From positions 62,001 to 126,000 of the forward strand of contig CALUJL010000030.1 in the NCBI GenBank assembly GCA_944320955.1: a stretch of 64,000 nucleotides of DNA. The letters are read 5' to 3'. Shown one piece after another: positions 26,502 to 57,582 of this stretch. Under the pieces are notes generated by a model. That model searched no databases. It worked only from the letters and a program-made list of their open reading frames with translations, and had not been told where the DNA came from. Source of the stretch: an uncultured Bacteroidaceae bacterium (GTDB lineage: Bacteria > Bacteroidota > Bacteroidia > Bacteroidales > Bacteroidaceae). The first letter of the stretch is position 1. Each line of letters opens with the position of its first letter. The position numbers and the translations under genes are program-made.

Positions 26502-26644
26502 CCTGTATCCTTGTTAGTGCCGTCGGGCTACTTTCGGAAACAGGAAGATGCGTGCACGGGATGCACGGGAGCAGGAGATGCGACTCGGGGTCAGGACTTG
26601 TGTGCTCGGGCTTTTCCTCGAAAGCGGCCAAAACATGCGTTTCT

Positions 26645-26836
26645 TCCGGGCAGGTCTTCTGACTTGTCGCTTGCGGAGACTGTCCTTCCCGGAGGCGGTT
26701 GCGCTCCAGTGGATGCCTTTCTCGGCGGTGTCTCGGCAGGTGGCCTGTGGGCCGTGCGGCTTACAGCAGCGGGACTGTTCGGGACTTTCACCCGATTCCC
26801 TTTTCATCACCTTGCGGGGTGAACCCGGATACGGCG
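26645..26836 (-). ncRNA. Cobalamin (AdoCbl-type) riboswitch
   Basis: On the minus strand the leader reads GGGAATCGGGTGAAAGTCCC, then CAGTCCCGCTGCTGTAAGCC, a peripheral region with CATCCACTGG, and the B12 box AGTCAGAAGACCTGCC (complement of 26651-26666). These are the conserved elements of the class in order. The transcription start predicted from the box at 26845-26838 falls at its 5' edge. B12 should repress the five-gene operon. Between it and the btuB ATG lie about 140 nt with a GTGCA/TGCAC hairpin that may be the expression platform. Confidence 0.95.
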
Positions 26837-26837
26837 G

Positions 26838-26845
26838 CAAAGATA
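26838..26845 (-). promoter_or_regulatory. Promoter -7 box TATCTTTG of the B12 operon
   Basis: Minus-strand TATCTTTG immediately upstream of the riboswitch. A weak CTTG -33 element lies about 20 nt further up, at the edge of a repeat array. Confidence 0.7.
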
Positions 26846-49105: not shown

Positions 49106-53392
<4,287 letters not shown>

Positions 53393-53439: not shown

Positions 53440-53481
53440 CTCGGGGCAGGTTTCTCCGGAAGCCTGCCCCGAGTTTCTTTT
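53440..53481 (+). terminator. Intrinsic terminator after rpoC
   Basis: CTCGGGGCAGG (53440-53450) pairs with CCTGCCCCGAG (53463-53473), 11 bp, loop of 12 nt, then TTTCTTTTG. Confidence 0.85.
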
Positions 53482-53784: not shown

Positions 53785-53815
53785 TTTGCGAATTCTAAAA
53801 TAGTCCTTATCTTTG
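53785..53815 (+). promoter_or_regulatory. Promoter of the structured leader (TTTG-N19-TATCTTTG)
   Basis: -33 TTTG at 53785-53788 and -7 TATCTTTG at 53808-53815 with exact 19-nt spacing. Flanks (AAAATAGTCC, GCAGC) closely resemble the tRNA operon promoter at 40350-40380, indicating strong transcription. Confidence 0.8.
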
Positions 53816-53819
53816 CAGC

Positions 53820-54216
53820 GTTTCCTACGCCGAAAGCCTCCGCCGCCGGAGGCGGCAAGGGTGGGGAATGCACATTCACTGAAAGCGTTTACTTGGCGCT
53901 TTGATCTTGACGAATCGAAACTTCGCAACTTTCAGACCTTGTCAAAGACAAAGCAACAGTAGATGTTCATGGGTATGTTTTATAGCCATGTCCATATCCG
54001 CGCTTGCCAATTGCGCGGATATTTTTGGGCTTTTTATCATAAACATATCGGCGTGGGCTTCTGCGTTGCTCGTTTCGACAAGGTGGGCAATGCGAAGGCC
54101 TCGATTCGTGGGACGAGTAACAGGTACAGACTCCCGCGCTTTTTTGTTTATGTGCCTAAGCAAACAAAGCAAACCGGCCTTCCCGGGAGTCTGAAGGCGT
54201 ATCAGACTTTTTGTTA
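53820..54216 (+). ncRNA. Structured leader or small RNA with two terminator-like hairpins
   Basis: About 400 nt between a strong promoter and the first lipoprotein gene. Hairpins: GCCTCCG/CGGAGGC (53836-53853), AAAGCG/CGCTTT (53882-53902), CTTGTC/GACAA (53938-53951), and ATATCCGCGC/GCGCGGATAT (53994-54022) followed by TTTT, a terminator that would yield an RNA of about 205 nt. Downstream, CAGACTCCCG (54127-54136) can pair with CGGGAGTCTG (54184-54193), or AGTCTG (54188-54193) with CAGACT (54203-54208) followed by TTTTT. The two pairings exclude each other, as in an attenuator. The frame at 53963-54223 is open, but its peptide looks incidental. I believe closely similar sequence recurs in Bacteroides genomes; this is from memory and unverified. 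Confidence 0.6.
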
Positions 54217-54219
54217 TTT

Positions 54220-54969
54220 ATGAAAGATTCAGTGAAGCGGAGCCTTTGGCGTATAGGGCTTTTGTTGCCTATTTTGTTTGTGGGCCTTTTTTCTTCTTGC
54301 TCGGAGGATGATGACGAACCAAAAGGTGATGGTGTTTCCAACAGTCGGCTTGTTGGTACATGGATGACCAGCCCTGACAGTTGGGGAAATACTTGGGGAT
54401 ATACATTTTACGACGATGGGACGTGTGTTTGTTACGAATCCCGTTACTCTTATCCTGGCACTTATGAGGTGCATTCCGACCTTCTTCTTATCTATTGGGA
54501 AGGCGACGAAACCCCGGAGATATATACTAGTTTTTCAGTGAGCCGCAATTCGTTGTCGCTTACAGATGCGGATGGCGACACTTATACTCTCTACCGTCAG
54601 GGAACGGCAGGCGGAGACGATGAGGATGACGAGGACTATGGAAACAATGAGGGCAATGAGGACGAATATCCGTTTATCGGCACATGGATTGAAGATGCTG
54701 ATTTTGCAACTTCTGAGAATGTCCAGTTTGTCTTTGAGGCCAATGGTGCCTTTTCCTATACGTACTATGAGTATTCCCGCAAGGTTTACAGTGGAAACGG
54801 GGAATGGTGGGTAGAATACGATGAGTATAGTGGGGATTTGGAATTGCATGTCTTCGACGATACGTATGGAGATAGCTATTATTTCTCCATCAGAAATTCT
54901 TCCTCCTCTCGCTTAATCTTGCGTGAAGAGCATAGCGATGAAGTATTCTCTCTGACTCGTCGGTATTAA
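54220..54969 (+). CDS. Surface lipoprotein with two lipocalin-like (WT-motif) modules
   Basis: A 249-residue SPII lipoprotein: MKDSVKRSLWRIGLLLPILF, lipobox FSSC with Cys27, then an acidic SEDDDE stretch that may act as a surface-export signal. Two related modules each start with G-W (LVGTWMTSPDSWGNTWGYTF and PFIGTWIEDADFATSENVQF) and have the small beta-barrel look of lipocalin-like domains, joined by a very acidic linker (GGDDEDDEDYGNNEGNEDEY). ATG 54220 is used; a TTG three codons upstream falls in the terminator T-run. GC is well below the neighbouring genes. Function unknown. Confidence 0.8.
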   Translation: MKDSVKRSLWRIGLLLPILFVGLFSSCSEDDDEPKGDGVSNSRLVGTWMTSPDSWGNTWGYTFYDDGTCVCYESRYSYPGTYEVHSDLLLIYWEGDETPEIYTSFSVSRNSLSLTDADGDTYTLYRQGTAGGDDEDDEDYGNNEGNEDEYPFIGTWIEDADFATSENVQFVFEANGAFSYTYYEYSRKVYSGNGEWWVEYDEYSGDLELHVFDDTYGDSYYFSIRNSSSSRLILREEHSDEVFSLTRRY

Positions 54970-54970
54970 A

Positions 54971-55663
54971 ATGGCAACGATGAAGAAAATTAGATTGTCT
55001 GCATTGTTTCTGCTCCTTGGCTTTTTCTGTGGGGCGGCATTGCTTTCTTGTTCGGACGATGACGATGGACCGAGTTCCGGTTCGTCAAATGGCGGGTTGG
55101 TTGGTACTTGGATGACTAGCGATGGCGGTTCCGGTTATCAATTCTTTCGGGATGGAACTTTTATTCTTTATGAATATGACGGGGACCGTGAAACTGGGAC
55201 CTATCGGGTACTGTCTTCTGAAAGAAACGATATCCTGATACTTGATTGGGATGGTGCAGGAATGGAGTACTGCCCTTATTCTTTAACGGACGATTGCCTT
55301 ACGTTGTATTCAGATACGGACTATACAGTCCTTTATAAGCATTCTAATGACGATTATTTCGATGAGGAAGAAGATGGGTCTGATTCCGGGAACAGAGAAC
55401 ACCATTCTTCTCTTTTGGGAGAATGGATAGAGGAGGATGGTGGTTATGTCTATGACTATTATTCTTTTTATTCAGACGGGACCGGCATACATGGCTCATA
55501 TGAGTGGGACATTGATTGGGTCAACGAGGATGAGGATATAGAATGGTACACCGTAGATAAGAAATATCTGTATATAAACGGAGCTCGATATCGATATTGG
55601 TGCGATGGTTCGACGCTTGAGATCGAGATAAAAGGAGAGATCAGGACTTATTATGAGAAGTAA
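54971..55663 (+). CDS. Paralogous surface lipoprotein with lipocalin-like modules
   Basis: Starts one base after the previous stop; ATG 54971, or 54980 (MKKIRLSALFLLLGFFCGAA), with lipobox LLSC followed by SDDDDG. It repeats the layout of its neighbour: LVGTWMTSDGGSGYQFFRDG, an acidic linker (DDYFDEEEDGSDSG), then LLGEWIEEDGGYVYDYYSFY. The shared VGTWMTS motif shows the two are tandem duplicates that have diverged. The 3' end overlaps the next gene by 11 nt. Low GC as in the neighbour. Confidence 0.8.
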   Translation: MATMKKIRLSALFLLLGFFCGAALLSCSDDDDGPSSGSSNGGLVGTWMTSDGGSGYQFFRDGTFILYEYDGDRETGTYRVLSSERNDILILDWDGAGMEYCPYSLTDDCLTLYSDTDYTVLYKHSNDDYFDEEEDGSDSGNREHHSSLLGEWIEEDGGYVYDYYSFYSDGTGIHGSYEWDIDWVNEDEDIEWYTVDKKYLYINGARYRYWCDGSTLEIEIKGEIRTYYEK

Positions 55664-56723
55664 ATTGTATCGTTATTGTTTAGGGTGCATTCACAAAAGC
55701 ATCAAGACAAGAAGTGGGGTAGCTAAGACTTTGGCTCCTACATATAAATACTTAGGCCTGCTTTTGTTCTGTGCTGTATCGGAGTTCTGCTTGGCCCAGC
55801 CTGCGGTGGACTACTCTGTGGTTTCCGTGCCGGAGGAATCGGGGACTGAATTCCTGCAGGTGAGTACTGCTGCCGATTATGTCTGCATGCCGCAAGTGAA
55901 GCGCGGCAGTGGCGGGCGAATCGACTGGCTCTCCAACCGTGTGCTCGATACCTCGGTCGACGGGCAAAGCATCGCTTACTTGTCGCTGCGGGGCAACACG
56001 ACGAACATCTTCATCAAGGACCTGAGCCGTCAGGGCAGCTCTACGCAACGGACCAACCGTCAAGGGGTCTGGGACTTTGCCTATTCGCCGGATGGGAACT
56101 CCATCTGTTTCTCTGAAGCGCGCGGCACGACGAACCAGATCTTCCTGACGGATGCGCGGACCGGCTATGTCTGTCGCCAGATCACGCAGGGAAGCAATGA
56201 TTATTCGCCCGTCTTTTCTCCGGATATGAAGAGCATCTTCTTCGCCCGTCTGGAGAACCGGGGAGTAAGCATCTGGAATTATAATATCGAGAACAACTTC
56301 CTCTCCAGTTTTACCAACGGAATGAATCCATGCCCGCTGCCGGGCGATGAAAAGTCCTTCTTTTGTACCCGTACCAACACAAGCGGAAGGAGCGAGATCT
56401 GGAAGGTAAACTACGAAAGCGGTGTGGAGGAGTGCATTGTTTCCGATCCGCAGCGCAGTTTTACCAGTCCTTCCCTTTCGCCGGACGGGCAGTGGATTCT
56501 TTTTGTAGGCGACAGTAAAATCCAAGGCAACGGCTTCGTCTATGCCAATACGGATCTCTTCGTAGCCCGGGTGGACGGCACCGGTTTTGCCCAGCTTACC
56601 TATCATGCGGCCGATGACCTGAGTCCTGTCTGGAGCCGCGACGGGCAATTCATCTATTTCCTCTCGCAGCGGGGAAATGCGGAGGGGATTTGCAATATAT
56701 GGCGCATGAATTTTCAATATTAG
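55653..56723 (+). CDS. TolB-like beta-propeller protein (WD40/PD40 repeats)
   Basis: A 356-residue exported protein; a long N-terminal extension precedes the hydrophobic signal (YLGLLLFCAVSEFCLAQ). Six or so PD40 blades: VWDFAYSPDGNSICFSEARG, DYSPVFSPDMKSIFFARLEN, FTSPSLSPDGQWILFVGDSK and DLSPVWSRDGQFIYFLSQRG. Such TolB-type propellers act in the periplasm as binding platforms. It overlaps the upstream lipoprotein gene by 11 nt in another frame, so the start may lie further downstream at a non-ATG codon, but no better in-frame start is visible. Part of a four-gene transcript from the promoter at 53785. Confidence 0.82.
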   Translation: MRSKLYRYCLGCIHKSIKTRSGVAKTLAPTYKYLGLLLFCAVSEFCLAQPAVDYSVVSVPEESGTEFLQVSTAADYVCMPQVKRGSGGRIDWLSNRVLDTSVDGQSIAYLSLRGNTTNIFIKDLSRQGSSTQRTNRQGVWDFAYSPDGNSICFSEARGTTNQIFLTDARTGYVCRQITQGSNDYSPVFSPDMKSIFFARLENRGVSIWNYNIENNFLSSFTNGMNPCPLPGDEKSFFCTRTNTSGRSEIWKVNYESGVEECIVSDPQRSFTSPSLSPDGQWILFVGDSKIQGNGFVYANTDLFVARVDGTGFAQLTYHAADDLSPVWSRDGQFIYFLSQRGNAEGICNIWRMNFQY

Positions 56724-56769
56724 TGCTTAAACATTTTATTCAAACATCAATTCTAAAAAGAAAAAGACG

Positions 56770-57582
56770 ATGAAAACTTTCAGACTTTTGGCTGCCCTTG
56801 TTTTGGCGGGGGTAGCAGGCAGTGCCTCGGCACAGTTCGTAAATTCGGCAGACAATAGCCGGGCCGCCTCCGGCGTTAGCGCCCGTTCGGTCCAGACCGA
56901 GGGATGGAACCGGATTTACGTCTCGTACAACAAAATCGGGTATAGTTACGATGGAGACGGCAATGACTATAGTGACGATTTGGGGTTCAATGGCTTCCAA
57001 TTCGGATACATAAAAGGTTTTTCGATTACTCCCCGTTTCCCCTTGTATGTGGAAGCCGGAATAGGGTTGCAATATGCCTTTAAGAATATGGATTTGGGAG
57101 ATTATAAAAGTGGTGAGATCCCTAGGATTCTTCAGGACGAAGATAAAAAACCTCAGATTGGTCTTGGCGACAATATAGAACAAACGTACAAATATAGCTT
57201 GCTCACCCTGCAGGTTCCTGTGAATCTCGTATATAAGTATGCTTTCAGCGATCGTTTTGCCATAGCTCCTTTCGTAGGTATCGATCTGAAGTACAACTTG
57301 CTGGGAAAATTAGTCCTGAAGAACGAAGCTCAGAATGAAGCTGGCGAGGCCAAGATGGAGGACAATGATATAAAAGACAGTTACGATGCCAATCTTTTTG
57401 ACAAGAAGGATATGGGTAGCAAGGATGCTACATGGAAACGTTTCCAGATAGGCTGGCACATCGGTCTGGGAATGGATATCAGCGATTTCTATGCTTCCAT
57501 CAGTTACGGGACGGACTTCACAGAGATATGCAAGAAGACCAAGTTGAGTAATATGGTAATATCTCTTGGCTATAATTTCTGA
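56770..57582 (+). CDS. Outer-membrane beta-barrel protein
   Basis: A 270-residue protein with signal peptide MKTFRLLAALVLAGVAGSAS. Alternating hydrophobic strands: RIYVSYNKIGYSY, FQFGYIKGFSI, LYVEAGIGLQYAF, LLTLQVPVNLVYKYAF, FAIAPFVGIDLKYNLLG, WHIGLGMDISDFYASISYG. It ends in the aromatic C-terminal strand NMVISLGYNF, the BAM recognition end. Fits the 8-10-strand outer_membrane_beta-barrel (OMP_b-brl) group. It is last in the operon and followed by a terminator. With two surface lipoproteins and a propeller it may form an envelope complex; this is inference. Confidence 0.85.
   Translation: MKTFRLLAALVLAGVAGSASAQFVNSADNSRAASGVSARSVQTEGWNRIYVSYNKIGYSYDGDGNDYSDDLGFNGFQFGYIKGFSITPRFPLYVEAGIGLQYAFKNMDLGDYKSGEIPRILQDEDKKPQIGLGDNIEQTYKYSLLTLQVPVNLVYKYAFSDRFAIAPFVGIDLKYNLLGKLVLKNEAQNEAGEAKMEDNDIKDSYDANLFDKKDMGSKDATWKRFQIGWHIGLGMDISDFYASISYGTDFTEICKKTKLSNMVISLGYNF

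Follow-up and report, generated by a model that had tools for sequence, protein, structure and literature searches.

An intergenic region ahead of a lipoprotein operon of an uncultured Bacteroidaceae bacterium was found to contain a conserved 5′ leader, which in our preferred reading (probability about two in three) acts in cis to control the downstream operon by transcription attenuation, in a riboswitch-like manner. Covariation among the aligned copies demonstrates the helices of the leader and the mutual exclusion among them, and for the leader we infer transcription, switching and the direction of the switch; the earlier claim of a regulated leader ahead of the lipoprotein operon was supported to this extent. 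On the best reading, the controlled genes are accessory envelope and defence genes. With a promoter and a stop signal of its own, this folded RNA of gut Bacteroidales, about 325 nt long, seems to represent an RNA-switch class that is not yet catalogued. All positions refer to the window, the whole stretch of 64,000 nucleotides that was analysed (contig CALUJL010000030.1, positions 62,001 to 126,000).

Locus and promoter of the leader

The element was found between rpoC (49106-53392) and the lipoprotein operon, the first ATG of which is at 54220 (Table 1), and it is insulated by the terminator of the upstream rpoC. Downstream of the promoter come the leader, some 400 nt long, and then the lipoprotein operon. 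The TTTG and TAnnTTTG boxes of the promoter, for which a consensus is quoted in PMC7366714, were separated by 19 nt, and the start of the RNA is predicted from the promoter position at about 53821-53822. This sigma-ABfr-type promoter had been proposed in the original prediction and was found again across the family, TAnnTTTG being present upstream in 98 of 123 copies (9.8 expected from shuffling) and clustered 67-79 nt ahead of the core anchor. A scan for sigma-70 promoters and short-loop terminators had overlooked the true promoter and the true terminator of the leader. The 402-nt leader was found to fold at -159 kcal/mol (z = -6.7; equalled by 0 of 100 shuffles), in accordance with the structured RNA element that had been claimed. 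The extent given for it, 53785-54223, was redrawn in part, with the end of the terminator placed at 54145 and that of the covarying segment D at 54193.

Table 1. Features of the leader RNA and of the genes around it in the window
Feature	Position	Strand	Role or evidence
rpoC terminator	53440-53473	+	15-bp hairpin and T-run
Promoter -33 TTTG	53785-53788	+	Sequence
Promoter -7 TAnnTTTG (TATCTTTG)	53808-53815	+	Sequence
Segment A (CCTACGCCGA)	53824-53833	+	5′ side of hairpin 1, or antiterminator when paired with B; permuted-partner test
Segment A′ (GGGTGGGGAA)	53859-53868	+	Pairs locally with A to form hairpin 1; fold of -25.5 kcal/mol and A:A′ covariation
P1 5′ strand (GCACAT...AAAGCG)	53870-53887	+	P1 z = 9.7, pair counts
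Hairpin P2	53885-53899	+	Compensatory changes in both helices (P2, pseudoknot)
Hairpin P3 (TTTG/CAAA, TTGAC/GTCAA), large loop	53900-53952	+	11/11 pairs changed on both sides
P3 loop K1 GAATCGA	53912-53918	+	6/7 pairs covary, up to 6 pair types
P3 loop K2 CTTCGCA	53921-53927	+	99.8% paired
P3 loop K3 CCTT	53937-53940	+	Weaker, 56% paired
Hairpin P4, variable	53994-54026	+	T-run peculiar to the window copy and few others
Segment B (TCGGCGTGGG)	54048-54057	+	Partner of A in the antiterminator, of C in the terminator; covariation
Hairpin P5 (GTTGCTCGT/ACGAGTAAC)	54065-54121	+	Pairing in 98% of cells; G-U changes frequent
P5 loop K3′, K2′, K1′	54080-54083, 54091-54097, 54101-54107	+	Partners of K3, K2 and K1 of the P3 loop
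Segment C (CAGACTCCCGCGC) and T6	54127-54145	+	3′ side of the conserved intrinsic terminator
Segment D (CGGGAGTCTG)	54184-54193	+	Complementary to C; past the terminator, 27 nt before ATG
First gene, lipoprotein with DUF5640	54220-54969	+	Pfam PF18692, E=1.8e-9
Second lipoprotein	54983-55663	+	ORFs, Pfam
PD40 beta-propeller protein	55653-56723	+	ORFs, Pfam
Outer-membrane beta-barrel protein	56770-57582	+	ORFs, Pfam

Covariation and strand of the RNA

The helices of a 53-pair structure were found by MI-APC in 125 aligned copies without a prior model. On 83 copies, 91.2% of the cells of this structure were paired and both-side changes were present in 28 of the 53 pairs; compensatory changes in the hairpins had been set beforehand as the test that could refute the prediction, and the result was strongly positive. 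The covariation score was 0.328 against 0.202 for shuffled alignments, none of 500 shuffles being as good, and it reached at most 0.164 when the structure was slid. The core was found to contain P2 with its pseudoknot, P3, the variable P4 and a loop-loop contact, in which the P3 loop (about 30 nt) is joined through K1, K2 and K3 to the P5 loop more than 100 nt downstream. In the pseudoknot, TTTAC of the P2 loop (53888-53892) was paired with GTAGA (53959-53963), as represented by the MI-APC pair 64-134, and the 5′ strand of P1 was found to have the T-run region and ATGTGC (54150-54155) as its partners. A 12-nt strand of P5 was invariant in alignment A2; the same strand had served as search pattern.

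Over the whole structure, 474 G-U pairs were found against 82 A-C mismatches, with ratios of 125:0 in P5 and 83:1 in the B:C terminator stem; column independence alone also favours G-U (617:221), and the contrast within single helices is the stronger argument. Since G-U far exceeds A-C, the selected molecule is the RNA of the + strand and not a DNA palindrome, and the aligned copies show the + strand transcript to be the functional form. No reading frame was kept open over the copies around P5, the three + frames being open in 38, 26 and 22% of them, and a small protein gene, for which a frame conserved among the copies was looked for, was rejected.

Mutually exclusive helices and the terminator

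In most copies, segment B was found to be complementary to both segment A, at the 5′ end of the leader, and segment C. Segment A was also complementary to A′, located just after it, and segment C to D; the C:D helix was contained in 91 of 109 copies, with the start of D 29-50 nt (10-90%) past the T-run. In a permuted-partner test, each copy's own segments were set against partners swapped among the copies. The own partners obtained z-scores of 8.7 (A:B), 9.2 (A:A′), 8.1 (B:C), 12.3 (C:D) and 9.7 (P1), and of 5.9-8.4 when 57 copies with less than 66% identity were used, all of these permutation scores being inflated by the relatedness of the copies. The non-partners A:C, A:D, B:D, A:P1-3′ and B:P1-5′ gave z-scores of -2.0 to 1.4. 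The z-score of 3.9 for B:P1-3′ is explained by the overlap of P1-3′ with C, and values of 2-4 were reached by some parallel-orientation controls. Compensated variants of A and B were present as CGCCGA with TCGGCG and CGCTGA with TCAGCG (loci L009, L050 and L056), followed by a second sequence solution of A TGAAAGCCCC with B GGGGCTTTCA (L061, L100 and L138).

Because successive helices share nucleotides, neighbouring helices of the chain A′:A:B:C:D exclude each other. As in an attenuator, the antiterminator and the terminator were found to be exclusive, with strand B in common, and both A:B and B:C were found to covary. The median duplex energies were -19.3 (A:A′), -17.2 (A:B), -12.9 (B:C) and -13.7 (C:D). 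For the window RNA, the constrained folds were -121.8 with the terminator and -118.3 with the antiterminator, less than 4 kcal/mol apart; the unconstrained minimum of -132.3 corresponded to a nested long-range fold, ViennaRNA being blind to pseudoknots.

The conserved terminator was found to consist of a hairpin of B, P5 and C (54050-54139) followed by T6 (54140-54145); the region 54046-54146 folds at -39.7 kcal/mol, and a motif search matched the T-run in 110 of the 122 copies. It predicts a terminated RNA of about 324 nt (53822-54145) in place of the product of about 205 nt proposed earlier. The hairpin and T-run at 53994-54026, which had been taken as a complete terminator, do exist (P4 hairpin 53994-54022 with T-run, -16.6 kcal/mol, z -3.9), but a hairpin with a T-run at the P4 position was found in just 3 of 122 copies; P4 was thus ruled out as the terminator of the family, and an RNA of about 205 nt is not a family property. 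In the window, segment D was found to open a short hairpin AGTCTGA/TCAGACT followed by T5 before the ATG (54188-54211), a possible extra terminator; none of this type was seen before the ATG in the other copies inspected.

The helices P1 and C:D both covary and need read-through to form, and they suggest a further role after it. Together with the position of D about 30 nt ahead of the ATG, this would also suit a post-transcriptional leader, in which P1, C:D and the loop-loop contact near the start codon set translation or mRNA stability while the terminator is leaky or marginal. Such a leader is unlikely, as a conserved hairpin and T-run stand directly after C in 110 of 122 copies and the exclusivity of A:B and B:C has no evident use in translation control.

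Copies, spread and divergence

Five copies, that of the window included, were found in the genome itself; BLAST located three places there besides the window, the longest match sharing 70% identity across about 250-270 nt. In the first search of relatives, copies were present in 15 of 61 genomes. A pattern of the two conserved strands was matched by at least 119 stretches of the genome collection, nearly all from Bacteroidales among the matches listed, which contained Bacteroides, Phocaeicola, Parabacteroides, Prevotella, Paraprevotella, Alistipes, Muribaculaceae and others; a few carried a Firmicutes label, these being MAGs that may be mis-binned. The covariance model R1, which represents the 3′ domain of the element, had matches in 74 out of the 393 genomes sampled from the same order (Bacteroidales), and in 395 genomes drawn from the phylum it gave, besides the genome itself, only one match, again of the same order. 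Eight genomes scanned deeper contained 5-17 covariance-model matches each at E<=0.01, of which the weakest are uncertain and a few are opposite-strand echoes of one site; several-fold fewer copies are found by the exact pattern than by the covariance model. No match to the element was found in plasmid sequences, two unannotated records were matched among phages, and three matches were found among viral contigs.

The dispersed RNA family that had been suspected was confirmed by these counts, in the genome itself as in the order, and the supposed near-identity of its copies was not: the median pairwise identity was about 58%, from which the copies are old, and no near-identical copies were present in the genome itself. 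A non-functional or mobile DNA repeat of the MITE-like palindrome kind would likewise be dispersed and imperfectly palindromic, with 5-17 matches per genome as in the eight genomes above. This explanation is largely refuted by the excess of G-U over A-C, the compensatory changes, the fixed gene orientation, the conserved promoter and the age of the copies. Neither the lack of strand preference nor the near-identical recent copies of a MITE were seen (G-U 474 against A-C 82; 111 of 116 co-directional).

Genes behind the leader

The next gene was co-directional in 111 of 116 copies, and its ATG was located at a median of 78 nt past the T-run. An autonomous trans-acting sRNA of about 325 nt, with incidental neighbour genes, would agree with the own promoter and terminator and with a multicopy state like that of the FopS family (PMC11697453), and is quite improbable in view of this orientation and tight spacing, of the covarying segment D past the terminator, and of a core with complex tertiary contacts and no open seed.

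In the window, the genes in 54971-57582 are likely the rest of the operon, and the PD40 protein (55653-56723) was found to resemble a family recurring in the operons behind L077, L112 and L137. By simple heuristics, signal or membrane N-termini were contained in 56% of first genes against 40% of control ORFs, and a lipobox in 20% against 7%. BspA-type leucine-rich repeats were present in the first four genes at 15 loci, and DUF4988 and LytTR proteins were recurrent, followed by an LPP20-like lipoprotein pair, a tiny HTH-like gene and radical-SAM/Cys-rich peptide pairs, all three labelled by eye. The genes behind the copies also included SNF2/phospholipase-D anti-phage helicases, a HaeIII-type restriction enzyme and DUF4007. 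A split into two sequence subfamilies with envelope and defence genes, respectively, was not clear (SP/TM 61% vs 42%, mixed lists).

Some single loci were also recorded. The tiny HTH-like first gene, of about 70-90 aa, was found at L015, L049, L063, L115 and L191:755-1009 (-), with the motif IGxxIxxxLxxQxRSxTWFAxxLxCxRxNVYxIFxxxxID, and the proteins of L115 and L191 had no Pfam match. The operons of L048, L060 and L121 contained Cys-rich, leader-peptide-like precursors and a radical-SAM-like gene and were RiPP-like. In L156:648-8125, an IMG/VR contig, the copy was followed by an EF-Tu-like protein with extensions, an Hsp70-like protein and a HerA-like ATPase (by eye).

Comparison with known RNAs

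The statement that the element does not match the signatures of tmRNA, RNase P, SRP or 6S was borne out in Rfam 15, no family of which matched the element in the window or 15 other copy loci, and nothing was found up to E 0.5 in a further Rfam scan; the best value recorded, E 0.15 for Leu_leader (21.1 of 50 bits), was judged a chance match. No published description of this RNA was found in the openly accessible journal literature that was searched. Rfam matches of other kinds in the DNA analysed were an abiF RNA (RF03085) at L040:1254-1290 (+), adjoining a copy of the element, and a cobalamin riboswitch (RF00174, 100 bits) at 26632-26843 (-) of the window.

With transcriptional riboswitches and T-box-type attenuators, the element was found to share the 5′ leader, the large conserved core, the antiterminator and terminator with a common strand, and the genes downstream. 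It differs from them by the missing Rfam match, the five-segment chain with a post-terminator segment, the loop-loop core, and the occurrence of as many as a dozen copies or more ahead of unrelated genes. A T-box kinship, raised by a short GTGG-AC-G resemblance, was ruled out, with no Rfam match and no amino-acid genes.

The FopS/GibS sRNAs of Bacteroides are paralogous and multicopy, FopS being described as a short, trans-acting RNA, represented in Rfam, of a single-stranded 5′ seed and one terminator hairpin (PMC11697453). The element shares with them the multicopy state, the sigma-ABfr-type promoter, the intrinsic terminator and the occurrence in Bacteroidaceae, but differs from FopS by its large folded core and its location in cis to genes; membership of the FopS family was rejected on the folded core of about 325 nt and the lack of an Rfam match. 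The Bacteroidales-1 RNA (RF01693) is likewise a structured RNA of Bacteroidales, and the Rfam scan of the element and the 15 copy loci was without a match to it. The HMP2 structured-RNA candidates of Bacteroidetes, of 27-219 nt and including short palindromic terminator-like ones (PMC8040213), are shorter than the full element and might include fragments of it.

The antitermination leaders of the EAR, put and LoaP type are also structured RNA leaders ahead of accessory operons. A processive-antitermination platform, where a protein is loaded on RNA polymerase to pass this and later terminators, would account for one RNA ahead of many unrelated accessory operons, as for a general loader. It is as improbable as the trans-acting sRNA, given that the covarying A:B/B:C switch is enough for local attenuation, which suffices for the anatomy of the element, and that no protein partner is known or dedicated protein identified for it.

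Proposed mechanism and significance

In the preferred reading of a cis-acting attenuator, RNA synthesis would begin at about 53822, and segment A would pair first with the adjacent A′ to form hairpin 1, an anti-antiterminator. The large core (P2, P3, the pseudoknot and the variable P4) would fold next, followed by the emergence of B. If free, B would pair with C and complete the P5 hairpin as an intrinsic terminator, with a stop at about 54145 and release of the RNA of about 324 nt. If B were paired with A as the antiterminator, RNA polymerase would read through, C:D would form just ahead of the start codon, and the operon would be expressed. The core with its P3-P5 loop contact is likely the sensor that chooses between A:A′ and A:B. 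From the helix strengths and the synthesis of A′ right after A, the default state is probably the terminated (OFF) one, with hairpin 1 and the terminator formed. Segment D cannot itself be the antiterminator because it lies past the terminator.

The downstream genes are very heterogeneous and therefore point to no obvious metabolite effector; with first genes so varied, the signal is more probably a general physiological or envelope/phage-related one than a single metabolite. It is possible, and is put forward tentatively, that the element represents a major riboswitch-like class, specific to Bacteroidales, with an aptamer core built on a pseudoknotted loop-loop contact and a switch of five segments, through which one global signal would reach many accessory operons (adhesins, lipoproteins, anti-phage, signalling).

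The long 5′ leaders of Bacteroidales have so far been poorly explained. A large covarying leader RNA outside Rfam, with copy numbers from several to a dozen or more in the genomes of many gut Bacteroidales and located before surface and defence genes, points to an unrecognised regulon and to a signal that governs it. The covariance model could be used to annotate such leaders in gut metagenomes and could correct spurious small-protein annotations there, if any exist.
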